Source: Perkinsus olseni
Taxonomy: Eukaryota > Perkinsozoa > Perkinsida > Perkinsidae
Direction of reading: 5' to 3'
Length of the DNA: 64,000 nt
Assembly (NCBI GenBank): GCA_013115135.1
Contig: JABANP010000023.1
Location: forward strand, 186,001-250,000
Of the stretch, positions 12,314 through 28,363 are shown piece by piece. Both the position numbers and the translations under genes were made by a program. Position 1 is the first letter of the stretch. Each line of letters opens with the position of its first letter. The notes beneath the pieces were generated by a model. The model was not told the origin of the DNA, searched no databases, and saw only the letters and a list, made by a program, of their open reading frames with translations.

Positions 12314-15300
12314 ATGCCTCCAGCCAGACGTCTACGGAAAGGAAAGTCTGGTCATGAAGGGAAGAGAAGACGCTCCTCAACGCCATCTGATGGTAGGGCC
12401 ACTCTGCCGTTCAGATGTGCAGCCTCTCGCAAGTTCGCTGGGGGTTGCATCTCGCGGGGATTATTGAAATCAACTTTGATGCGGTCTATGGGTATCGTTG
12501 AGCTCTCTTTCCGTACGTGTGAGTTTAAGCTCAACGCCGAGAGGCGGCTTATTCAGACCTAGCACCAATGTATCTTGTCTCCAGAGGGATGAGTCTCTTT
12601 CAGTATTCACGCAGGAGAGGGAAATGTCAGTGGAGCGGCCGAAGAGCGAACGTAAGGGTTCGGAGAGACGCCACCGTCTGCGGAAACAAAGTAAAAGAGA
12701 GCGAAAAGTAGATCTCGTACGGCTCTTCAAAGCATTGGGTTTTTCGCCTCAGAATCTAAAACAAAGCCCTCCGCCGTGGATGGGGATGCCGGTGAACAGC
12801 AGTCAAGTAGCAGTTTCAAGGGACGGCCCCTGTCGCCTTCGACTCCCTTCCCTTCTCAGTAATTGCCGGCCAAGCTGTTCAAATAACGGAACTGCAGCAG
12901 CGTGAGTCCTCATCGTGTGCCTTCCGAAGGGCACTGATGGTCGCTTAGGTATCAAAGAATTGGAGGAGCGTATCGGCAATGCGCCATCAGGCTTGGGTGC
13001 GTCGGGACTGCCATGGTTGACGGCTCATCTCAGCTCTCTTCTCGGAGTTCAGAGTCCGCGCAAGGAGGCAACGTTCCATTGGAGAGTTCGAATGAGAATA
13101 GAGCAAGTAAGCTTCGTCCGGTACGCAACGGTTCGACTCGACGAGCAATGGTTTTTCTTGGGACGGCCGGAACGCGGTCAAAAGTGAACCATGCTGTAGT
13201 CGAGCGCCCTTTCAGGTAGTAGAGATGAAGAGTTGAAGCCAACTCCATATGGAGGCGGCGAACAGTGCAGCAACGGCAGCGAAGACAAGAAGCAGATGAG
13301 TCGTTCCTGAATGTGAGCTGGCACAAGTCTCGATTCACGCGTCTCTGTCCGCCCCCAGCTGAAGCCTTCCGATGTGTCCCCCTGTCAGTTATGTCGATGG
13401 GCGAGAGGGAAAACGACGAGGGGAGTTGTGAGATTTTTGGTAAGCTGAGTGGTGCCAGCGTGCTTCAATAATGAAGGTTGCCGTGCTTGCTCTTCAGGTT
13501 ATGAGGACTGCGAGCCTCGGGAGAGGAACATCTGGTCAGCGGGAACTCGTGCAACAACCAATGAGAGGCTATCGAGTAGAGGCATAGTTCTCGTTGATTC
13601 CGCTGAGCTCTGCCCTCCGCTCAGGTGCCCCGTCGTACGGCACGAGCTCGGAGGCGGAGGCTGGGGGCTGTGATCCCGCCTCCTTGCCGACCGTGCCCTA
13701 CCCCGACCCAAGAAGATCCTTCCACGGCCCACCTACTCGGTACGAATGACCGGAAGCCGTAGTTTTGTGGCATTTTTCCCCGTCAGGCCGCCCGGAACCT
13801 TCCATGTTCCTGGAGAATGAGGACTTGGATATGTTCCACGATGGAGGCAAGTCGGTCACACCGCGGTTAAGTTGTTCAGCTTGCTGCTGGTCAGGCTTGG
13901 CGGATATGGAAGCCCCCTCAGAAATGCATTTACATGGCTCCGAAGGTGACTAGCGTTCTCCGTTTTTGTTTGTATTGGTCGTTCTCAGGCTCGCAAGCCC
14001 TCTCGAGGACGGAGATGGCTGGGAATGCTGGACACCGCAAGAGGAGGGTGGCGAGTGCAGGCTATGCTGATGCAGGTGAGCGGTGCGGGATGGTCTATTC
14101 GAATGACCGTTACCTAGCATGTAAGAAGCCAATAAGCACACGAACGAGGCACACAGAAGGTCTACGACGTATATATCGACTGTACCTGCATGTAGGAGCT
14201 CCATAACTACTACTGGTGCTTCGATCACGAGCTCGAAACTAGCTCTCGGTCTATAGCCTGCGTAGGGATTATAATTTATAATGCGCTAGTTCATCCGAAC
14301 GCACGGTGGGAATCTCGGTGGGGAAGGCTGAGGGCAATACCACTCCCGCACGTCCGTATCGAAAATCGGAGAGTGAAGACGCCTCCTCCGGTATCTTTAC
14401 TCAACACGTTCATGAGAATTTGGCACGGTCTCTTACGATCATTTTCCTAGCTGTAGCCTCCCTTCTCGTTAAGCCGCGTACTGCTCCGCCATGCCATCTG
14501 ATAGAAACAGCTTCAGGGTGGGGACACCTGTGCGGTTTTGTGGGTATTATGCTCCACTTACAGACTACGTGCGGGTGAGCCATCACCTGCATGCCATTCA
14601 GGTTTCGCCGATCCCGAGATTCTGTCTGAGTGGTCTGTCGAAAATGAAGGTGAGCTCCAAGCTCCTCGCCTTGCTCATCAGCGTCCGCGGTCGACCTGCT
14701 GCATTTCTCTCACAGGCCCAACTGGAGGGGCTCCCGAGGAGAAGAGGCCACGGACGGCGAGAGGCCATAGAGGCTCGGCGAACAGACCGTCGGAAGCGGA
14801 TATTGGTGAGTGGCGGCAGTTGGGTGGTGAGCATGAGCTCGTGACGCGGCAGTGTGCGACTGCGGGTTTTCCTGCGGGAGTGATGCCATAGTCGGACCAG
14901 CGTAGCTTCTGAGGCTCTTTGCCATTGTGCTTCGATCTCGGACCGCTTCCTTGGTCTGCCCCCTCAGACTCGACCGCAAGCCCACCGGATGAGTCGAAGA
15001 AGCCAAGGCTGAGGGGACGCCCACGGAAAGCGGCTGGAGTGAGCGGCGAAGTTACTGGTGAGGGGGAATTCATTGATTAGGGCGTGGTGTGGTATTAAAG
15101 GAGCCCATAGTGTGATGTATAGAACCGTGTGTAGCGTAGTGCGTCATAAGCTATCACGGGCGCCCCACTGCAACTCACAGTCTCATGATATGCTGCTACA
15201 ATTCGTCTCGCAGTCTTTAAGATGCACTCAATAACTCTCAACTGCGAATGAGCATATAGCCTAGGATAGGGCGGCTACACACGCTGTAATTCCCATACCA

Positions 15301-16681
15301 ATAACACCTTTCAGAGCATCAAACGGAGCCCAAGAAGAGCGAAGAAATCCTGAACGTGTCATTGGCAGGCCAGACTAGGCATCAGTCTCGGAGCTTCCTT
15401 TTCACCTGGTCGCATACTGAGGACTGCGACAAGGCCAAGCCCTGCGATTGGGATAAGAAGCAGATCAGCAAGGTTATCCTAGATATTAATGAGGGCAAAA
15501 ACTTACTTTACTACGCGATCTTCTTCGAGAATCATAAGGACGGCAATCCTCATGTGCACTTCACGCTCAAGTATGATACCCCAACGCGTTGGAAGCAGCT
15601 CGCGGATGCTCTCCGAACCAAGTACAGCATCTACGCCTCGGTCTGCTGTGCCATCCCTAGGCCGGGGTATAAGAAATGCATGTACCCCGTGCTGTTCTCC
15701 TACTGCTACCGCACCAATCCCGACAAGCCCCTGATCGACCTTGACCACAAGCCCTACCTTTCCCAGAACCATCCCCATCCTCACAGTCTCATAGTTCCTC
15801 GAGAGAGACAAGGAGCGAAGGCCAAGCGAGTGCGGGCTATGGATAGGGTCGACTTTCAGGAGTTCGTGGTGGCGAAAGAAATTAAGAAGGAGAGCCAGGT
15901 CTTACCGTACGCCGAGAGAGACCGGGCGCTTAACATGCTGGCTATGAATGATAAGATTGACGTGCAGGCTCTCATCGATAGGTCGTGGGAGATCGCGGAG
16001 GCTTCCATGCGGCAGGAGGAAGAGGAGAGAAGTCCGATGCAGAAGGTTAACGCTTGCCAGAAAGGCAAATGCGTCTGTCGGAGTCCTGGCCTGTGGCTCG
16101 AGAAGATATCAGAGGTTGTTGTACGGAATCTAGGAGAGGAAAGAGCTGATCAGCTGAGAGAAGACATCAGGCGGAACCTGGAGGAAGGACGGTCGAAGCA
16201 GACGAATGTGGTTATTCACGGTGTGGCCTCGAGTGGCAAGACCGCCATTCTGCAGCCCCTCACTCGCATCCTGAAGTGCGCGACGACTCCTGATTCGGGG
16301 AAATTCTCTCTCGAGGATTTGCTCGATTGTGAGTGCGTCTTCTGGAACGACTTCCGCCTGAAGTGTTTGGGCGAGGGCTGCGATATGGGTAAGCTGCTGA
16401 ACCTCCTGGAGGGGAACGAGATCAAGATCAGCCGACCCCGCAATAGAAAGAAGAACGACTCGATCTTCACCAAGTTGGTACCGATTTTTATTACTTGTAA
16501 TGCGTTACCTGTCCCAAGGGAAGATCAGGACAGGGACGCGTTGCGTGAGAGGCTTCAGCGATGTTATTACTTCCCTTATATGATAGACCATAAGGAGCAG
16601 GTGAGGCGGATAGACCCGTGCACCCGATGTTTCGCTGATTGGCTTTTCACTGCCACCTTAGCTCAGACCCAGCATGAATGA
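12314..16681 (+). CDS. Rep array unit 1: AT-hook plus HUH nickase plus SF3 helicase, the least degraded copy
   Basis: A multi-exon gene whose terminal exon is a viral-type replication initiator. ATG 12314 opens a short basic Ser/Pro exon (MPPARRLRKGKSG). Several Ser/Lys-rich exons follow, including one at about 12951 beginning GIKELEERIG. An exon at 14968-15057 carries an AT-hook (KKPRLRGRPRKAAGV). Its donor at 15058 and the acceptor at 15314 join it in phase 1 to the Rep exon, where the frame stays open to TGA 16679-16681. The Rep frame has no plausible ATG of its own at its start (first candidate is GTG 15356), which supports fusion. This unit is about twice as long as the others. Its inner exon chain (12400-14960) is only partly resolved. 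Viral origin is inference from the domain pair; a DNA-binding role follows from the AT-hook. Confidence 0.6.
15315..16681 (+). other. Rep terminal exon of unit 1: HUH endonuclease and superfamily 3 helicase
   Basis: Numbering from GTG 15356 gives 441 residues. Motif I-like RSFLFTWSH is at 12-20 and the HUH motif HVH at 66-68. The position of the catalytic Tyr motif holds YCYR (116-119) rather than the usual YxxK. A Cys cluster (C234, C239, C241) precedes the helicase. Walker A GVASSGKT is at 289-296, a Walker B-like VFWNDF at 328-333, and motif C IFITCN at 377-382 with the sensor Asn, then an Arg-rich ALRERLQRC. A CxxC (422-425) lies near the C-terminus. The order HUH then SF3 is that of CRESS-DNA virus and parvovirus-like Rep proteins; the tryptophan before the acidic Walker B residue leans toward the parvovirus style, but this is not decisive. 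All required residues except the Lys of motif III are present. Confidence 0.8.
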
Positions 16682-16921
16682 TGATGATGTTTTAGATACC
16701 TCTCCCTTTGTTTGGTTCCCATCAATCTCCCCCGCCATCCTCCTCTCAGGCTCGATCCGTCGTTCATGCTGTTGGTCGTGCAGGATAGGTAAGACCCTCC
16801 AGCTGCCCCCTCTCCCGGTCGCCTCGAGTGGTGGACATCTCCTGACTATGAAGGCAGCGGCAACATGTGCATGAGAATACAGTGCTTCTAGCTCCTCTCT
16901 CTGTGGTGTTGGTCAGTTGGG
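16531..16921 (+). repeat. Block shared with 22300-22689 (unit 1 and unit 3 3' ends)
   Basis: The last part of the unit 1 Rep exon and about 240 bp of 3' flank reappear almost unchanged at 22300-22689, including the Rep C-terminal codons, the stop and a downstream pyrimidine-rich tract. This shows duplication or conversion between units 1 and 3. Confidence 0.85.
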
Positions 16922-17156
16922 GAATAGACCATCAGTGCGGGAGGGTATCGTAGCTTCTGTCGTCTTACTCTCCGCACAGTAGAGGGGATTCTGTGGTTTC
17001 TACGGCAACATGGCCTGCATTATAAATCTCGTGCAGCGTCACTACGCCTCTAGAGGGGAAGGCGTTCGGAGGATTGTAGTCCAGTGTGACTGAGCGTGAT
17101 GGCCGTCGCCTTAGCTGATGGAAGTTCAAACAGCGGTTGTTGACTCACTCGAGACT
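16682..17156. other. Spacer between Rep units 1 and 2
   Basis: It contains the 3' flank copied after unit 3 (to 16921) and then about 235 bp that presumably hold the unit 2 promoter. No RNA gene or open coding frame is convincing. Confidence 0.5.
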
Positions 17157-18395
17157 ATGTCGGATCCACCGACCGCCGAGATCACAGCGCCAAAATTAGA
17201 ACCTAGCATGCCTGACGGTAGGGCAGGGTGTTCGATGGGAGGTTGATAGACCACTGGTCATAGTTTCGCCGTCCCATTCATGGTCCACGGTGAAGTACAG
17301 TCTGTAACGAGAGAAATACGAGGAGCAAGTTAGGCCACTTCGTCACGCAGCAGTAGCGGCATCAGCGGGGGATCGAGGCAGCACTCAGATACTGTATCAG
17401 TACTCGGACGCTTCGACCGCCGCCGCTGCTGCTGCCAGGTGGCATAGTGGCCTCATTCCTGCATGTTGCCTCCCCTCGTCACACATCGTATACCCGTTGC
17501 GTATTGTCGTGCGAAAATCCACCCAAACTCGCTCCATTACCCTCGCTGATATTTTCTCTCTTTTGTGTGCAGTTCACGTGGAGGTCAACAACGGCCTAGA
17601 AACGACACTGCCGCTCGCCGCTGGTGATGAGGACACTATACTGTACCCCGCAGTGGCTGAGGGAGATGAGTCCAACAGTAAGGAAACCCCCTCTCGGTGC
17701 CTGTTGATGGTCGTTCCTCGTTCAGCCATCGAGGCCTTGCGAGTCCAGATCACGGCCCTCCAGGACCGTGGGTCTCCGGCTTCACCGTCTGAAGGCCCCC
17801 TAGTGGTTGTCTTGGTTAGGTATCAAGTGGCTGGAAGAAGGGCAGCGGAAGTCCCTGGAACTCCGTAGGAGGGTTTTTGACGGATCGTTAAGGCCGTGGA
17901 CTATTCTCTTACAGGTGCAATCGACCGGGGCCCGACGCCCTGCGCGAGGTGTCTCCGATGCCGCTGCAGGGTGGAGGGAGCAGCCCTTGAAGATGAAGTC
18001 GGGAAGCAGGAGGCTGCGAGTGATGGGAGTAAGTCCTACACCCTCAGTTTTCCACTGGCGAATCCTCGGTCGTTCCATTACTATATTACACTTCAGAATA
18101 CGGCAAGCATGTATTCTCTAAGATTCACTAGGGTTGAGGGTGTATATTTCTGATGGGCTGCGTCCTCAGTATTCCAAGTCTTTACCTCAGATGAAAGTCG
18201 GAAGAGAAGCCCAGAGATCCGTGACCTGGAAGGCCGTAACCGACAGCAAGGGCGAAGCTTTCTGTACAAATTCTCGAGGTCAAGTGCTGGCAGCTATGGT
18301 GGCGTGGACAAACAGGCTCTTTCCACTGCCATAGTCGAAGCCAACGAGGCTCTGGGAAAGACCTTGACGTACTTCTCGATATTCTGCGACCAAAA

Positions 18396-18713
18396 CGACA
18401 TTTACTTCGTGTTGAAGTATGAGACTCCGACCAGATGGAAGCAGCTTGCCGATACCCTGCGCAACAAGTACGGCATCTCCACCTCGGTCAGCTGTGCCGT
18501 CCCCAGGCCGGGGTACAGGACCTGCATGTACCCCGTGCTGTTCTCCTACTGCCTCGACTTGGACCCCAACCCCTACCTATCCCCCAATCACCCCCACCCC
18601 AGCAGCCTCCTCGGGGACGGAGAGAAGCAGGGCTCGACGGCCAGACGGACTCCAGCTTTGGACGCGGGTGGTCTGCCGGCACTCCCACCTTCAAGAGGCG
18701 CTGAGGAGGAGGG
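18396..18713 (+). repeat. Block near-identical to 21853-22171 (units 2 and 3)
   Basis: The second half of the nickase domain and the linker (from the HUH position to the ARRTPAL...PSRGAEEE stretch) are nearly the same in units 2 and 3, far closer than the flanking parts. This indicates recent conversion or duplication of this segment only. Confidence 0.8.
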
Positions 18714-18969
18714 GAATGTCCCTGAGGGTGACGGAGCCCCCACTGTGAAGATACCGGGTGAAGATAACCAGTCAATCATCGATGAGTCTGCGGGCTGTGT
18801 AGAAGGAAGCCCATTGGATCAAGTGGAGCAATGTTTGGAGAGGGGGTTGCATTTGTCGCCGCCCCGGTCTGTGGGCTTGAGAGAATATCGTCTTTGGTTG
18901 TGCGAAATCTTGGAAAAGAGGGAGCGAAGCAGCTGAGGGAGGATATTCGGCAGAACTTGGAACAGGGAC

Positions 18970-19440
18970 GCTCGAAGGAGACTAATGTGGTGATCTACGG
19001 TGTGGCCTCCAGTGGCAAGACCGCCATACTGCGGCCTCTCACTCACATCTTGAAGTGCGCTAAGATCTCCGATGCTGAGGAAATCTCCCATGAGGATTTA
19101 CTCGACTGTGAGTGCATCCTGTGGAGTCACTTCTCCGTGGAAGATTTGGGCGACAACTTTGACATGACGAAGTTACTCCAAACTCCTCGATGGCCGCCCG
19201 GTTGAGATGAGCTGCTCGAGCGACCGAGGGAAATAGTGACTTTACTTTCGACAAGTTGGTGCCAATTTTCCTCACGTGTGATGCGCTCCCTGCCCCCCTT
19301 CGAAGTTGAGGGCAGACAGGCCCTACACGAGAGGCTTCAGCGATGTCACTACTTCCCGTACAAGATGGAGCTCCCGAGGAACGGAAGAAGCCTTCCATAT
19401 CTTGCAACCGATGCTTCGCTGAGTGGCTCTTCGCTGATAC
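18970..19440 (+). repeat. Helicase block near-identical to 24296-24770 (units 2 and 4)
   Basis: From just before Walker A to the C-terminus, units 2 and 4 match closely apart from the small indels that break unit 2. Their nickase halves are much more different. The pairing differs from the unit 2/3 block, so the array is mosaic. Confidence 0.8.
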
Positions 19441-19447
19441 ACTAGCT

Positions 19448-20038
19448 TGAACTCAGCATTAATATTTGTGTTTCCTTTCTACTGCGGTTTAGTTCATGTC
19501 AATTCGTCCGACCATCGTCTCCTCAGCCTCGCAGGGGACGACATTTATGACGAGTGATCGACCCCATGCTGTTGTGCCTTTGTTTTGGCTCTCTAGTCAC
19601 TACAATGGCGTTCTGATATCTTTGAGTGCCAGGCTACTAGACTCGGAGTCACTATCAAATCGTTATCGAGATTGTTGGTGTCATCAGAGCTGCTTCGACT
19701 CTTCTGTGGTATCTGCCTCGTCAACAAGTCCATTACGTGGGGCCTTCGTGTACTTGGCCGACGGCAAAAAGCCTCGAGTTGTCTCAATTTTAGTCTGACC
19801 GCTCTCTAGTTAGGGATGTTGCTTCAGTTGCTGCTCAGCCGTAGTAAAGGAGACCCCCACTCGACCCTATCGTAGCTCCTCTGTCTCACCCGTTTCTTAC
19901 CGATGAGAACCTCACCAACGTGTCGCTCGAGTTGAAGTTCTGTGGTGGTGCTGGGCCGGTGGTGTTGATCAGATGGGGTGGCGCATTCACTGACATCAAG
20001 GATATAGCTTTGTTGTTAGTGTTGGCATACTCCAAGCT
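19448..20038. other. Spacer between Rep units 2 and 3
   Basis: A stretch near 19810-19870 resembles the 3' flank of unit 4 near 24840-24910, extending the unit 2/4 relationship past the gene. No coding region is supported. Confidence 0.45.
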
Positions 20039-22285
20039 ATGCCTGACTCGTCAACCGTGGCCGCATCCTCGGACCCTGAGCCTTGCAAGAATGAAAGTGG
20101 GTGGGTGGGGATGGTCAGGCCCTGACCGTCAGGGAAGGTAGCTCTTGTTTTATCTTCTCCTTCTGGCGAAGTCCGAGGACGGCAAGGAAGATGCGAGCTC
20201 TCTTGTGCTTGAAACGCCGTTCATCCCAGATTCTCTGCCACCTGCGGCTGTCGTTCCCACCGAGGGCGACCCCGACCGAGAGCCCGAATTTCCCCTCACC
20301 GATACGGACAACTTCGTGCGGCCTGAAGGCTTAGATCAGGCTAACAGTAGAAGCAATTGATCGGAACTCTATAGTTCGCCAACCGATTTCTTTCAGTCAT
20401 CGACGCTCAAGCTCGAGAGATTGTGGCACTAAAGCGGCGTGAGTCGTCCGCTGATGGGGGGCGGCGAAGCGCATCTTGGTTAGGTATCGATGCATTGGAG
20501 CGGGAGAGACAGGGGACGGAGGAGCGTGAGGGAAATAGCAAGTGTGCGTTATGTTCTCGTTCTTTTCTCACGCCTTTCGTCTTGTGAGCAGGGAGGCCTG
20601 CCGGAGATGCTTGAAGCGGCCCCGCAGGTGGAAGCAGGGGGAGGCCATCGATGAAGGTGAGTTCTTATTTTCTGTTCTTTTCGGGCATTGCCGTAGTCGA
20701 TCGCGGCAATATATCGTCCTGGGTAGACACCATTGCAGTAGTCTCTTCTGAAGGTTAGACTGATCACCAGTAGTCCAACCTGCGAATCCTGTGTCTCGCG
20801 ATAAGGCTGAAGTCAGCATGAGTTCGCAAGTAACCCATCCGACCGATTCTACTCCAACGTATCCCGTGTATAATTCGCAATCTCCTCATCGGAGACGTTG
20901 GAAGCATGCTCTTGGGGCCCCTCGGAGTCAATGCTATGACGCGGTGTGAGGGCTGCGTACAGGGCCAGCTGACTTGACCAGCCGGTGGACAACGAACGTC
21001 CGAGCAATGAACAACGGAGATGCTCGACTCGCCGTTCCCTATCGAGTTTGTTTCTGAAGATATGTGTGATTCCGGCAGCCCATTTCTCGTCGACGCATGA
21101 GGAAAGTAGGATGAAACTGTCGATAAATCTTAGTACAGCTCGACAGAAGTTATAACGTGAAAAGTCTTCGAAGAGTCACTACGGTTCGGCCTACACGGTC
21201 ATAACGCGTGAACGCCCGGTGGGTTATGGGATCACCGGTAAAGGCTACATACTCAGTGGGCTTCGGACTAGCCTTCTATGATACAAGCATCTCCGTGCAC
21301 GATTACCTCGCTATCCGGTCTTCGAAGGCCCTCCCTGAAAGACAACGTAAAATTCAGAAAAGAGCGCGGACTTTATTCGATGGTGTCGGTAGGTGTTGTA
21401 TAGTATTCGTCATAGTGTAGCACACGGTGGCATCTGTTGTGGTATGAGTCGAGTAAGTATACTACGAAGACGATAGAGTTGTAAGTAAAACAGCACACAG
21501 CGTACTACAGCAGACAGTGAAGTGAATGATCGGACAACTCTGTCACAACTGGGAAACTCCTCCGCCTGTATTACGTCATGTTACAGTAGAAGTCATGTAT
21601 TCGCTATGAACATGATGGAATCCGCACCTCAGGTCGAATCGAGCGAATGCACGTGATGTTCCTCAAGGACTTGACAGCAGAAGGTCTCACAAGAAAGCAG
21701 TCTCGGACCTTCCTGTTCACCTTGCTCTACATCGAGGAGGACGATGATAAGGCCGAGTTCAGCGTGTTCGGCGTGGGCAGGCTGAGCGAGATTATCGCCC
21801 AAGTTAACGAAGGGAAAAGTTTGCAGTATTTTTCCGTGTTCGAGAATAAGAACGACATTCACTTCGTATTGAAGTACGAGACTCCAACGAGGTGGAAGCA
21901 GCTTGCCGATACCCTCCGCAACAAGTACGGAATCATCGCCTCGGTCAGCTGTGCCATCCCCAAGACAGGGTACAGGACCTGCATGTACCCCGTGCTGTTC
22001 TCCTACTGCCTCGACTTGGACCCCAACTTCTACCTATCCCCCAATCACCCCCACCCCAGCAGCCTCCTCGGAGACGGAGAGAAGCAGGGCTCGAGGGCTA
22101 GACGGACTCCAGCTTTGGACGGGGGTGGTCTGCCGGCACTCCCACCTTCAAGAGGCGCTGAGGAGGAGGAGGAGACGGGTATCTTGGAGCATGTCGAGAG
22201 TGATGGAGTATCCGCTGTGAGCGCGGAGGAAGGGGTTCAGTCCCATGGATCGGAAGAGTCGGCAGAGTCTCTTGCCCTGTCTTGA
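20039..22285 (+). CDS. Rep array unit 3, nickase-like domain only, helicase deleted
   Basis: ATG 20039 opens a short exon (MPDSSTVAASSDPEP). Further exons hold SEDGKEDASSLVLETPF (about 20160), the mini-exon GIDALERERQG (about 20484) and a CxxC exon ACRRCLKRPRR (about 20595). The Rep exon starts at 21633 after cctcag, in phase 1 like the other units, and runs open to TGA 22283-22285. It has the motif I-like RTFLFTLLY. The HUH position is DIH, so one histidine is lost. The motif III position reads YCLD, with no Lys or Arg. At about 22171-22299 the sequence jumps past the Cys cluster, Walker A, Walker B and motif C into the 3' end of a unit 1-type gene, which lies after the stop. A short nickase-like product without ATPase is predicted; loss of function is the simpler reading. 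Confidence 0.6.
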
Positions 22286-22852
22286 GCTCCCCGTGGGGAC
22301 AGGGACGCGTTGCGTGAGAGGCTTCAGCGATGTTATTACTTCCCTTATATGATAGACCATAAGGAGCAGGTGAGGCGGATAGACCCGTGCACCCGATGTT
22401 TCGCTGATTGGCTTTTCACTGCCACCTTAGCTCAGACCCAGCATGAATGATGATGATGTTTTAGATACCCTCCCTCTGTTTAGTTCCCATCAATCGCTCC
22501 TTCCATCCTCCTCTCAGGCTCGACCCGTCGTTCATGCTGTTGGTAGTGCAGGGTAGGTGAGAACCCTCCAGCTGCCCCCTCTCCCGGTCGTCTCGAGTGG
22601 TGAACATCTCCTGACTGTGAAGGCAGCGGCAACATGTGCATGGAAATATAGTGCCTCCAGCTGCTCTCTTTGTGGTGTTGGTCAGTTGGGAACTGGGAAG
22701 GGTATCGTTGCTCATCTTTCTGACCTCTCTGCTCGCAATAGCAGTGTGAGCACTACAGCCCGTACTACGTAACTAACGGTGAGGACGTCACATCGTATAA
22801 CATAGAATACGGCGTCAGCTGGACCAATATCCAGTCAGCAAAAATTCAACCT
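22286..22852. other. Residual Rep 3' end and spacer before unit 4
   Basis: Bases 22300-22449 encode, out of frame and after the unit 3 stop, the last 50 or so codons of a unit 1-type Rep including its CxxC. The remainder to about 22689 is the copied 3' flank. The last 160 bp should contain the unit 4 promoter. Confidence 0.6.
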
Positions 22853-24736
22853 ATGTCATTCTCATCATCATTCGCCGAAGCCCCGACCTCGAAGAAGCCA
22901 GTGTCTTGCACGGGCGGCGATGGTAAGAAGGCTCAGCTGTAGAGGGCTTCTCGACGCCAGGCCGCGAGATACTCGCTTGTACTTTTGTCGTCGCCCGGTT
23001 GTTTGCCCGACTTGTTGCTTTAGGCTCTTTTCTCCACAGTAACTGTTGCAATTTCTACCGGCCTGCAGTCAGGTCAACCGCTTTCCTTCATCGATGAAGA
23101 TACTATCGTGTACGCCGATGAGCCCGGGGAAGACGATCCGAACCTCAAGATAATGGCCCTCAAGCAACGTGACTCCCCACTCCTGGTGGCGGAAGAGCTG
23201 AGTTGGGCTTGATTAGGTATCGATGTGCTGGAGGAGGAGAAGAAGTGGTTGGAGTGGCGTAACTTTGTTGCGTCATTCTACGATGAGGGCATCTTGCTTC
23301 AGGCCTTCGGAAATGGCAGGACTGCCACGAGTGCTCAAAGTGCAAACATGAGAAGCAGGAGGAGAAGGAGGACGAAGCCATTGTTGTTAAGAGTAAGTTT
23401 TCTGTTCTCTTCTCGAGTATCACAGAAGCTACTGATATGACTATATAGGAGGACCATGAATGTAGCGTCGAATAGCTTTGTCTGCGCCTCAGGTTCAGCA
23501 AGGATTATGGAAGTTTCGAGTCACGGCAACCGAATGACCAGGCACCAGTCGAGAAGCTACATCTACTCTTGGATCCATTGCAATGACATGGACCTACCAG
23601 ATGGCGTGCTCAAAAAGCGGCTCAGTAGGGTGCTCGCCCAGCTCAACGAGGCAAAGTCTTTGACGTTCTATTCTATATTCGTCGGGGAGCAGCAGAGGGA
23701 CGGCAGTCGACTTGTACACTCCCTGCTGAAGTATGGAACCCCGACGCGGTGGAAGCAGCTCTCGGACACTCTTCGAAGCAGATATGGGATCGACGCTTCG
23801 ATCAGATGTGCTGTCCCGAGGCCCGGCTTCAAAAGCTGTATGTACCCCATGCTCTTCAGCCACTGCCTCGACCTCGACCCTAGCCCCTACCTGTCCCCTC
23901 ATCATCCTGACCCCCGAAACCTCCTCGACGTCGAGGGGCAGGGCCCGAAGGGCAGGCAGACTCTTGCTTTGGAGGGGGGCGATCTCTCGATGCTGCCGAT
24001 CAAACGGGACGCTGAAAGGAAGGATGGAATTCCGGAGCATGCTGGTGAGGACAGAGCACTGGCCGTGAGTGTGCTGGGAGATAGCCGAGCTTTTATGGAT
24101 GAGTCTGTGGACTGTATGGAAGAGGACAACACGGACCCGATGTATGAAGTGGAAGCTTGCCTGGAGGCCGAGTGCCTCTGCGAGAGTCCCGGCCTGTGGC
24201 TGGAGCGAATATCGACCTTGGTTGTGCGGAATCTTGGAGAAGAGGGAGCGAAGAAACTGAGGAACGATATCCAGCGGAATCTGGAGGAGGGACGCTCGAA
24301 GGAGACTAATGTGGTTATCTACGGTGTGGCCTCCAGTGGTAAGACCGCCATACTGCGGCCTCTCACTCACATCTTGAAGTGCGCCAAGATCTCCGATGCT
24401 GAGGAAATCTCCCGTGAGGATTTACTCGACTGTGAGTGCATCTTGTGGACTCGCTTCTGCGTGGAGGATTTGGGCGACGACTTTGACATGACGAAGTTAC
24501 TCAAACTCCTCGATGGCCGCCCGGTTGAGATGAGCTGCGACCAGCGAAATAGTGGCTCTACTTTCGACAAGTTGGTGCCAATTTTCCTCACGTGTGATGC
24601 TCTCCCTGTCCCAAGGGAAGATCAGGACAGGGAGGCCTTACATGAGAGGCTTCAGCGATGTCACTACTTCCCTCATAAGATGGACCGAGAGGAGCGGGGG
24701 AAAGCCGTTCAGGCCTTGCAACCGGTGCTTCGCTGA
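22853..24736 (+). CDS. Rep array unit 4: full-length open frame, catalytic residues replaced
   Basis: ATG 22853 begins MSFSSSFAEAPTSKK. Exons follow with FIDEDTIVYADEPGEDD (about 23090), GIDVLEEEKKWLEWRNF (about 23219) and a Cys exon CHECSKCKHEK (about 23321). The Rep exon enters in phase 1 after cctcag near 23492 and stays open to 24736, over 400 codons. Motif I-like RSYIYSWIH is clear. The HUH position reads LVH (first His lost) and the motif III position HCLD (Tyr to His). Walker A GVASSGKT is intact, but Walker B reads ILWTRF with no acidic residue and motif C LTCD instead of ITCN. The final 20 or so codons are shifted relative to unit 1: the conserved CNRCFADWLF lies in another frame, so the product ends differently. 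Catalysis looks lost while the open frame is kept. Confidence 0.65.
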
Positions 24737-26069
24737 TTGGCTCTTCGTAGATACACTAGCTCGAACTCAGCATGAATAATGACGTTTCACCCTGTCTGCT
24801 GTTCGGTTCAAATCAATTTCTGCGGCAATTATTCTCTCAGGCTTGCAGATGATGGTGATGGCCCTGCTGCTGCTCAGCCGCAGGTACGGAAGCCCCCACG
24901 CAGGTCGTCTTTGAGGCATGTTGTGTCAAGTAAAATATCATTCGCAGGCGCTTCAATCTGCTGCTTCTGTAGCGTTGTCCAGTTTGAAAGTGAGGGGTTA
25001 AATATGAGAGCGGATCGTGATGACTTGGGCTTCTTCTCCACCAGACGGTTCCCTTCCGATATTCTTCGGGAGCTTCAGCATACATCAGTCTGTAACGAAA
25101 AGATTCAACATGGAGAAATGAGGCCACTATGCCATGAGGCGCGAGAATCGCCGGTATCTCTGAGCCGTTCGCCGAAGAGCTGCGCCAGCCGAGCGGCTCG
25201 AATTTTTGCTGTAGGTCCTTAGTCAGGAGCTACAGCACGAGTCCTGACACGTGGAAGCGTCGTGTTCCCACTTTGGGTCGTGAAGTCTCCACAGTAAGGG
25301 AACGATTCACTTGCTGACCCCGAGATTCTCGAGTTGAGACCATTGGCGCCCCACGTGGCATAGTGGAGGCTGCATTCTTGCATGCTGCATTATCTTGTCG
25401 CAGGCTGCTGTATGTCGGGCACTTCGCCCGAGCCTACCGAACTTGGTCAAGCATTTTTTAGCGGGAAACCGTGGCTAATTGTATCATGTACCGCACCACA
25501 TGGTTCTCTAAACCCTTTCTAGTAGTGTGGTGTCTCGCTCACTCTATAGAAGTTTAGTGCACCGCGGTGTTTTCCTCAACACTGACCCTTGAGTCCTGAC
25601 GGCTCAGTTTCCTCAGCACTACTGGGCACAGCTTCGGCTGGAGGGCCCACTGAGTCAGTACTACTGACTCAGTAGGCCCTCCTGCCGAAGCAGTGGAGGA
25701 TCTTCAATAGACCTCTCCTGAATTTCAAGTAGCTACTTTTTCGTGGTGAACACCAATGGGCCATCAGCAATCCCGGTGGCCCTCTACTGCCGCCGGGTCC
25801 CGCGGTGAATCTTCCGAAGATTATCTTCGACTGACGGTGAGGACATCAACAGTACATGCATAAGAAGACAATGTCCCAGGGATGTTTTGTCTTAGTTTTG
25901 GCTAGGAGAAACATGACTTTGAACTAGGAAGTGATCGATGGTTCGGCGTTGAGCTTCGCAGTACAGGAGATCGGTGATTTTCAAATATAGGCCGAGTGCC
26001 GCCAGCGCCGAGTGAAACCATCATGCACTGCTCACGACACGTAAAGCTGCTTTTGAGGCTTTTTCACAT
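24737..26069. other. Spacer between Rep units 4 and 5, contains a long hairpin
   Basis: About 1.3 kb with no convincing gene. The first 150 bp continue the unit 4 3' flank. Segments near 25085-25130 and 25350-25395 resemble 17295-17345 and 17435-17465 around the start of unit 2, so promoter or 5' intron sequence is also duplicated. A near-perfect palindrome at 25631-25691 is listed separately. Confidence 0.45.
25631..25691. repeat. 61-base near-perfect palindrome (hairpin)
   Basis: Bases 25631-25660 and 25662-25691 are reverse complements at 28 of 30 positions around a single central base, with mismatches at arm positions 9 and 18. The stem core is ACTGAGTCAGTA on one side. It sits between Rep units 4 and 5. 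No nonanucleotide of the TANTATTAC type is present in the loop, so it is not a standard CRESS-virus origin. Confidence 0.85.
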
Positions 26070-28363
26070 ATGTCGAACTCGCCATCCCAGCCCATCCAGC
26101 CCGTCGACTCACCAAACGCGAGTGCCGGTGAGCTGGCTGCGATTATAGACAACATTTCTCTCGAGTCGATCGCCGTTTGTATTTTGTCTCTCCCATCTGT
26201 TGGAAGGTCGCGCGCTGAGATAGTATCTCGGAGACGTGGCTACCTGGCGCCTCCTTTGCGTGCTGTAATCCCTCGTCTGGGGGATAGTCAACCGCTTCAC
26301 GCTTCATGGTTAAGCGTTAGGATGGTGGGCAGAAGGAACCGCTGTGACTATGCCTTAACGACATCCATAGCAGTTTCATTCGGCGAGTTTCCGAGAGTAA
26401 CCACGAGGCGGTCGCCGAGCACTATTCCTATGCATCTTGAATAACTTTATACGGTCCTAAACTCTTTCCGTAACATAGCCAGGGCTGAACTCTCCGTCAT
26501 GATTGCCGTTTCTCTGCTCCAGATATCTTTCACGACTGCGTGGAGTCTAACCCCCGGCGCTGTTCTGGTGAGCATAGCTATCACTCCTGAGCATGCTTTT
26601 CAACATCTGTCACTTCCTGCAGTGTCTAGTACCGTCGGCTTCTCTAGTCGAATTCAGGCGATGAGGACGCTGTCCTTCAGATGAAGTTAGCTTATTGGAC
26701 GCAACAGTTCTCTATGGGGATGAAGAAGGAGACTCGGATACCGAGGAGAAAGTGAGACCGAAGGCCATGTACGCGCACTCCAAGCAGCCTCGCCATAGTT
26801 AGTTGTGCCAGTCCCGCGGCGTGAGTTCGAGGCCATGGAGGAACGTAAGGCGTCCTTCAGCTTCTGTATCCATCGTGAGTACTCATTCTTCTTGCAGGCA
26901 TTCGCTTCCTGGAGTCGGAAAATGCTGAACTGAAGCAGGGCGGCAAGCAACTCCGTTTTCACGGCTGGTCGTCATTCTGTCACTGAATAGGTGTATCTAG
27001 CCGCGTTGGCTTCTGTCCGCAATGTTCGCATCGGAATCTGCCGGCAGAAGCGGGCGAGAGCCGCGGAGAAGGTGAGGAACCTCTCCGGCCCGGGTGCGGT
27101 GTTTACCACCTTACAGAAGCTTTTGCTATCACTAAGGTGGATATTTCGGTGACCAAATACACGTTGAAAATGAATGCAGCAATATCATCTGGACACTTGC
27201 GTGACGTAAGTCACGTCGAAATACATATCCTATGCATCCAAGACACGAGGGTGTCGTCCTACTCTTTCCAACTTTCACGATGTACTGCTCGTTACTGGGG
27301 AGTGTTCGACTCCATTTTCGTCAGGCCATAAAGGGAAGTGTCTCGGGAGCGCCGGACTTCCCTTTTGTGTTTACCGGCATGTGGCTGCCGTTTGGGTCAC
27401 GACCATTCTCTTGAGTCTCGCAAACTGAAAATCTTCGGCTTCGACCTCACTGGAATCGTTGTGAACCTTGCCAAAGACATTAAGGCTTTGCGACGTCTCG
27501 CCGGGGCAAGCGAGAGGAAAACTCAACCCATATACCACAGGAACACTTTCCCAGTTGGCATCAAGAGACCTGAATCGAACACTCCCCCTGGTTATGAGTA
27601 ATACGCCGTCGAAGTTGAATGCACAGTAGTGAGGCATAGTCCTTCATTGATGCAAACACTCAGGACCCATAAGGCCACTGGTCGAGGCAGGAATCCGCAC
27701 TCGCATAAACGCGAAATCAAGTAGCATTGTCGAGTGTCGGCCGACCGGCATGCGAATTTGGTTCGACTTGTACTTCTGTACCGTACTTCTGTACTTCTGG
27801 TAGCTTGCACCTGAGAGGCGTGTCACAGCACTTCAATCAGACGCGATATCGTGCCAAGAACATGCCTCTCAGGCCGCATCCCAGTCGAAGAGCTAGCTAC
27901 GAGCGGCCCCAGGATTACTCCCTGGCCCGTTCGTGACGCTTGTTCGGCGACTGAGCTTCGGTTGGCCGACCGAGAAGCTCAGGCCAGGGTCTACGTGTGG
28001 GACTGGCCGGAGTCCCCTCACGGTCTATCTCCTCGTCATATCGAGAAGTCGGAACTGGGACGTTTGGTATCGGAGCTGAACGTTGGAAAGGGCCTCGCCC
28101 AGTTTTCGGTCTTTTACCGACGCTTGCCAAGCGGACCGGTCAATGCTCGCTTCATTGTTAAGTATTGGGGTTCACGACGCTGGGTGAAGATGTCACAAAC
28201 GCTGAGGACGGTGTATGGTATTCATGCTAGTACTCTGCAGGGCTCTCGTGGTTCCCTCAACTACGACTCGCTTTTCAACGATTGCCTCCTCGGTGACCCT
28301 GAGCCCCTTCTCTCCCCCAACCACCCGCCCGTCCCGTTGCCTGATTATATACCCACCATTTAG
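26070..28363 (+). CDS. Rep array unit 5: diverged nickase-like domain, no helicase
   Basis: ATG 26070 (MSNSPSQPIQPVDSPNASA) precedes a donor gtgagc. Later exons read LLDATVLYGDEEGDSD (about 26690), REFEAMEERKASFSF (about 26826), the mini-exon GIRFLESENAELKQGG (about 26898) and a CxxC exon GFCPQCSHRN (about 27010), the same order as units 2-4. An exon at about 27410-27600 (LKIFGFDLTGIVVNLAKDIK) has no counterpart that I could find. The last exon, within 27851-28363, matches the nickase region only: VYVWDWPES for motif I, ELGRLVSELNVGKGLAQFSV, then ARFIVKY where the HUH should be, and a degenerate NDCLLGD at motif III. It ends LSPNHPPVP shortly afterwards with a stop. It is the most diverged copy, and all catalytic residues are gone. 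Confidence 0.55.

Follow-up and report, generated by a model that had tools for sequence, protein, structure and literature searches.

Rep genes are regarded as hallmark genes of viruses and plasmids, and we know of few cellular uses of them. Here, we describe a tandem array of Rep-related exons in Perkinsus olseni, a species of a genus of single-celled shellfish parasites, in which a Rep gene, captured from an element that was virus-like or mobile, appears to have become a spliced parasite gene that was multiplied and diversified in tandem. The analyzed region was C146:186001-250000 (the 64-kb window; positions within it carry the prefix w) of a 61.5-Mb assembly of 968 contigs, in which C146 spans 276,019 bases.

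Among the closest described cases, PMC9707805 cites Rep fusion genes such as the guinea pig parvovirus-derived Rep-myosin (Valencia-Herrera et al. 2019), and Liu et al. 2011 (PMC3198968) reports Rep-like genes that are conserved and expressed, cases in protists, and, in the truffle Tuber, a geminivirus-like transposon that carries one Rep and two transposase frames. The array resembles Rep-myosin in that a Rep-derived frame is retained in a host genome, the guinea pig one being joined to host sequence, whereas it differs in being multi-copy and tandem, in its protist host, in the loss of nuclease motifs from most copies, and in that its tested 5' exons were found only within the family. Similarly, the material in Liu et al. 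shares with Perkinsus both protist Rep-like genes and Rep-plus-transposase elements, but unlike those elements the array is spliced (by prediction) and apparently immobile; the mobile relatives in Perkinsus form head-to-tail arrays with Tc1/mariner-type transposase frames. The word Perkinsus does not occur in the text of PMC3198968, and among the literature matches listed, none concerned Rep genes in Perkinsus by its title or abstract opening. In a spliced, multi-copy family with nuclease motifs kept in one lineage and lost in its sisters, and with mobile Rep relatives in the same genome, one could trace step by step how a captured replicase turns into a host protein.

The five Rep units

Five consecutive Rep-related exons were found, all on the + strand, which together with their 5' exons occupy approximately 13.5-28.4 kb of the window. 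The initial annotation had proposed five tandem Rep genes, each with exons ahead of the Rep exon, in an array starting at 12314. The five same-strand exons are present, but the intact genes do not number five because units 2-5 are broken or truncated; 5' exons are supported in unit 1 by similarity to a P. marinus protein and in units 2-4 by gene models but not in unit 5, and the first exon with homology starts at w13497. A Rep exon that is both complete and free of interruptions, with H-u-H, tyrosine, and Walker A, occurs in unit 1 alone. The features are as follows.

w13497..13575, + strand: unit 1 5' exon, similar to residues 15-40 of P. marinus P0001
w13576-13624: 49-nt intron after this unit 1 5' exon
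w13625..13739, + strand: second supported 5' exon of unit 1, with PASLPTVPYP in common with P. marinus
w14955..15057, + strand: probable last 5' exon of unit 1 (14955 is not a mapped exon start)
w15058-15314, + strand: intron before the unit 1 Rep exon, phase 1, donor and acceptor read by eye
w15315..16681, + strand: unit 1 Rep exon, a single frame open to the stop
w15551-15559: H-u-H of unit 1, HVH
w16220-16243: Walker A of unit 1, GVASSGKT
w17578..18028, + strand: 5' exons of unit 2, the first with its end at 17767 (17578 is not a mapped exon start), then 17820-17864 and 17915-18028
w18191..~19447, + strand: unit 2 Rep exon, broken by stops and frame changes
w20039-20096, 20230-20346, 20397-20438, 20484-20541, and 20592-20656, + strand: unit 3 5' exons according to gene model P0007
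w21633..22285, + strand: Rep exon of unit 3, confined to the HUH half, where P0007 stops
w22297..22469, + strand: detached unit 3 3' end, 173 nt, 100% the same as the unit 1 3' end (w16528-16700)
w22844-22922, 23073-23168, 23217-23258, and 23303-23392, + strand: unit 4 5' exons according to gene model P0002
w23493..24776, + strand: unit 4 Rep exon, with a frame change near 24.7 kb
w27815..28363, + strand: unit 5, a diverged relative of the HUH half, without helicase

The array Rep has an HUH nuclease fold, and this fold, together with homology to Reps of this genome that adjoin transposase frames, establishes the Rep ancestry of the predicted proteins. H-u-H is kept in unit 1 and in its P. marinus and P. 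chesapeaki relatives, where it reads HAH; all three also keep the tyrosine of the YxxK motif, with the lysine replaced by arginine or asparagine. In unit 1 this tyrosine motif reads YCYR, and the Rep exon carries a C-terminal C..CFA stretch. Units 2-5, as read from their motifs, have lost those of the nuclease, including H-u-H: motif 3 of unit 2 is YCLD, and unit 4 has lost the first HUH histidine and the motif 3 tyrosine. Walker A was seen in units 1, 2 (in the second frame), and 4. Unit 4 has no start codon at the site where P0002 has its start, and unit 3 is missing almost its entire helicase. Because the 173 nt at w22297-22469 match the unit 1 3' end exactly, they probably reflect recent gene conversion or unequal exchange, by which unit 3 would have been rebuilt.

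The match of the unit 1 Rep exon to Pfam PPV_E1_C (E 5.3e-5, 23 bits) lies below the cut-off of 26.5, with 6 of the 14 family members matching this profile at E<=0.1, and no family of CRESS Reps exceeded its cut-off; the best E for Gemini_AL1 was 0.022 (two of 14 members), and unit 1 scored 14.7 bits against its cut-off of 24. Parvovirus NS1 (PF01057) was absent from the profile matches listed for unit 1 and the 14 members, and it had no match in this genome nor, by the same search, in any control genome. No relatives of the array Rep were found in viral_contigs. Compared with the geminivirus Rep nuclease domain (PDB 6q1m and 7vg8), the identity of the array Rep is 18% and 14%; it also departs from geminivirus Rep in its Gemini_AL1 score, its YCYR motif 3, and a helicase half nearest to PPV_E1_C.

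Mobile Rep relatives in the same genome

Distant Reps in the same genome show approximately 26% identity to unit 1, and the array and these mobile Reps align with an hhalign E of 1e-22 over 396 columns while forming separate tree branches (100/100). Three aligned mobile Reps have YCVK or YSTK, with H-u-H and Y-x-x-K intact, and a search with the mobile Rep profile returned three proteins, all from P. olseni. Their units stand head-to-tail at approximately 3.82 kb (C66) and 3.48 kb (C472), and the repeat families listed for them are 96-100% alike, except for a 300-nt copy (64%) and a 91-nt copy (92%). Transposase frames, some of them broken, adjoin the mobile Reps; among the four scanned, HTH_38 was matched in all and DDE_3 in three (E<=1), both frames on C66 scoring above the cut-off for both domains. 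The C66 unit is 99.3-100% identical to copies on C369, C374, and C93, save for one 121-base piece (97.5%), and approximately 87-92% identical to those on C432 and C884. These Rep-plus-transposase arrays are apparently recent elements and possibly replicate as circles. Inverted CCAATGTTG/CAACATTGG pairs with a constant spacing of 49 occur in five of the nine loci checked (L032, L034, L039, L040, and L047).

Arrays of Rep with Tc1/mariner-type transposase were seen at L031 and L032 (C66), L034 (C472), L037/L038 (C369), L043 (C374), and L039/L040 (C267). At all four left edges examined (L031 from 7418, L035, L037, and L043), the element begins with AGATGAAATC..., and at an internal junction of L038 near 3051 a segment of approximately 180 bases with the inverted repeat is missing. 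TGATCAG repeats at the mobile loci might, as a guess, be Rep-binding sites. In addition, long frames that by eye resemble zinc-knuckle and reverse-transcriptase proteins adjoin the mobile Rep copies at L044 and L045 (C432 and C884).

Predicted splicing, relatives, and age of the locus

The initial annotation had also suggested looking for the exon set in related genomes. The P. marinus protein P0001 matches two 5' exons of unit 1: its similarity to the upstream region covers w13497-13601 and w13654-13848 (E 8.8e-7; the lowest E in 200 shuffles was 0.002). The probable last 5' exon of unit 1 resembles P0006 and P0001 weakly (E 0.71 and 0.32, respectively), and contains an RGRPRK stretch that we take to be AT-hook-like. 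P. olseni P0007 (FOZ60_005534) equals unit 3 residue for residue, its six exons being separated by introns of 133, 50, 45, 50, and 976 nt; alignment of P0002 gives introns of 150, 48, 44, and 100 nt in unit 4, and that of P0003 gives 52, 50, and 162 nt ahead of the unit 2 Rep exon. The aligner accepts only GT-AG introns, so this rule is imposed in all three alignments, and the exact P0007 match indicates that its model, like the others a database prediction, fits the rule and nothing further. The intron preceding the Rep exon is in phase 1 in units 2-4 (by gene-model alignment) as it is in unit 1. Between the 5' exons of unit 2 and the unit 4 region there is a match of 28.9 bits (E 1e-5), and C874 stretches lying 5' of other Rep exons resemble exons of unit 2 or 4 (E 8e-4, 2e-4, and 8e-6), with none of 200 shuffles scoring as high in any of these cases. 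In this genome, matches of the P0007 and P0002 5' exons were confined to C146 and C874 (5/5 and 8/8, respectively).

The protein search, which reaches only relatives that have short exact words in common (5381 candidates, E<=0.01), yielded seven: one from P. marinus, one partial from P. chesapeaki, four from P. olseni (one being the window's own), and P0005. Unit 1 is by far the copy nearest to the P. marinus protein (74% identity over 94% of the query; approximately 50% for unit 4). With midpoint rooting, the tree reads (P. chesapeaki,(P. marinus,(unit 1,(other P. olseni copies + P0005)))); the last group has 100/100 support and is starred, and the forks placing P. marinus and unit 1 have 82/96 and 85/91 and are unstarred. 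Contig C874 (L041/L042) matches w21928-25022 (92.4%) and w29558-32760 (91.6%), and represents either a second haplotype or a duplication of the array's right half; its middle differs and holds an extra HUH exon, which shows that the array itself is structurally variable.

For the gene flanking the array downstream (from 32.7 kb), a single homolog was found, P0011 (66% identity over 68%), the same search returning none from P. marinus. The contigs that carry P0011 and the Rep P0005 are both 13,211 bases long, which suggests that the two share a neighborhood in another genome; because they are apparently on the same contig, the array locus looks old.

Origin and possible role

On balance, the array probably represents a family of Perkinsus host genes that derives from a captured HUH-SF3 Rep, which was co-opted, expanded, and is diverging. 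This reading, which the initial annotation had proposed, is partly supported: the analysis establishes the Rep ancestry, the alignment of 5' exons of units 1-4 to gene models or to another species, the relatives in two other named Perkinsus species, the several tandem P. olseni copies, and the lack of nuclease motifs in units 2-5. Capture of a Rep followed by tandem expansion would explain why the exons are predicted to be spliced, why other species have relatives, why the cis-repeats are absent, and why most copies have lost their nuclease motifs. The founding Rep gene may have come from a forerunner of the mobile element, or from a related virus, and have been fixed at the locus before these Perkinsus species split; it would then have gained 5' exons. 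Because unit 1 retains H-u-H, the tyrosine, and Walker A, its lineage could act as a nuclear single-stranded DNA nickase-helicase. Duplication would have occurred in the P. olseni line, perhaps in common with the relative P0005, and copies without nuclease motifs might bind DNA or hydrolyze ATP without cutting, or be in decay.

Several results weigh against 5' exons common to the units. The match of unit 3 to the unit 4 region was unconvincing, and for unit 5, compared with units 2, 3, and 4, no 5' exon could be shown, the best score being 21.6 bits, reached by one of 200 shuffles. One of two control stretches scored 23.5 bits, again with one of 200 shuffles as high, and a chance-like 24.3-bit match with an internal stop exceeded its 200 shuffles. 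Of three competing explanations, the strongest holds that the array consists of decaying endogenous Rep remains devoid of host function, in which case the gene models and the open unit 1 frame would be coincidence or over-prediction. Such decay fits the condition of units 2-5, the equal likeness of exons (95-98%) and introns (94-98%) between unit 4 and C874, and the 5' exons of this pair, in which 7 of the 11 changed codons alter the residue, so that constraint is not visible there. However, the Rep part of unit 4 differs from the C874 copy by dN 0.026 and dS 0.114 (NG86) or 0.027 and 0.101 (YN00), with dN/dS of approximately 0.23 and with 12, 11, and 31 changes at codon positions 1, 2, and 3 of the Rep exon. 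In addition, unit 1 is open at 74% identity to P. marinus, whereas in neutral simulations to this identity its frame stayed open in only 4 of 2000 runs, with a mean of 5.4 stops (substitutions without indels). The 5' exons common to units 2 and 4, and the two common to unit 1 and P. marinus, also speak against decay, which we consider unlikely. For other pairs, NG86 gave dN 0.282 and dS 0.537 between the HUH halves of units 2 and 3, and dN 0.342 and dS 1.35, near saturation, between units 1 and 4.

The direction of transfer could also be reversed, with the Reps of the mobile elements descending from an old Rep-like host gene of Perkinsus. The tree cannot be rooted, and the named sources of both groups are Perkinsus only, which leaves room for this order of events; but the mobile Reps have the fuller motifs (H-u-H and Y-x-x-K), repeated cis-sequences, and single-frame genes, and motif loss in the array would be easier than gain in the element, which makes the reversal highly doubtful. 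That the array is an intron-bearing element still moving, in tandem here by chance, would be in keeping with the mobile-like Reps of this genome, which stand in nearly identical units, arranged in tandem, that adjoin Tc1/mariner-type transposase frames, but it is very improbable given that none of the 46 transposase matches in the genome lies on C146, that none of four mobile-element cis patterns searched for was found in the window, that close copies occur on C146 and C874 only, with one protein each found in P. marinus and P. chesapeaki, and that the flank is probably shared in another genome.

If the array is such a family of host genes, its most likely job would be the handling of single-stranded DNA. 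The least certain step is that the array might interfere with related Rep-encoding mobile elements, which is conceivable but unlikely. More specifically, and with still less likelihood, it could be a genome-encoded control system in which unit 1, as a nickase-helicase, and its paralogs without nuclease motifs bind the ends or origins of the co-resident Rep-plus-transposase elements and block their replication; if true, the genome would have fashioned its immunity out of the replicase of the parasitic element itself. Upstream of the array, w10793-11164 contains a fragment of a ubiquitin carboxyl-terminal hydrolase (UCH, E 1.3e-10).
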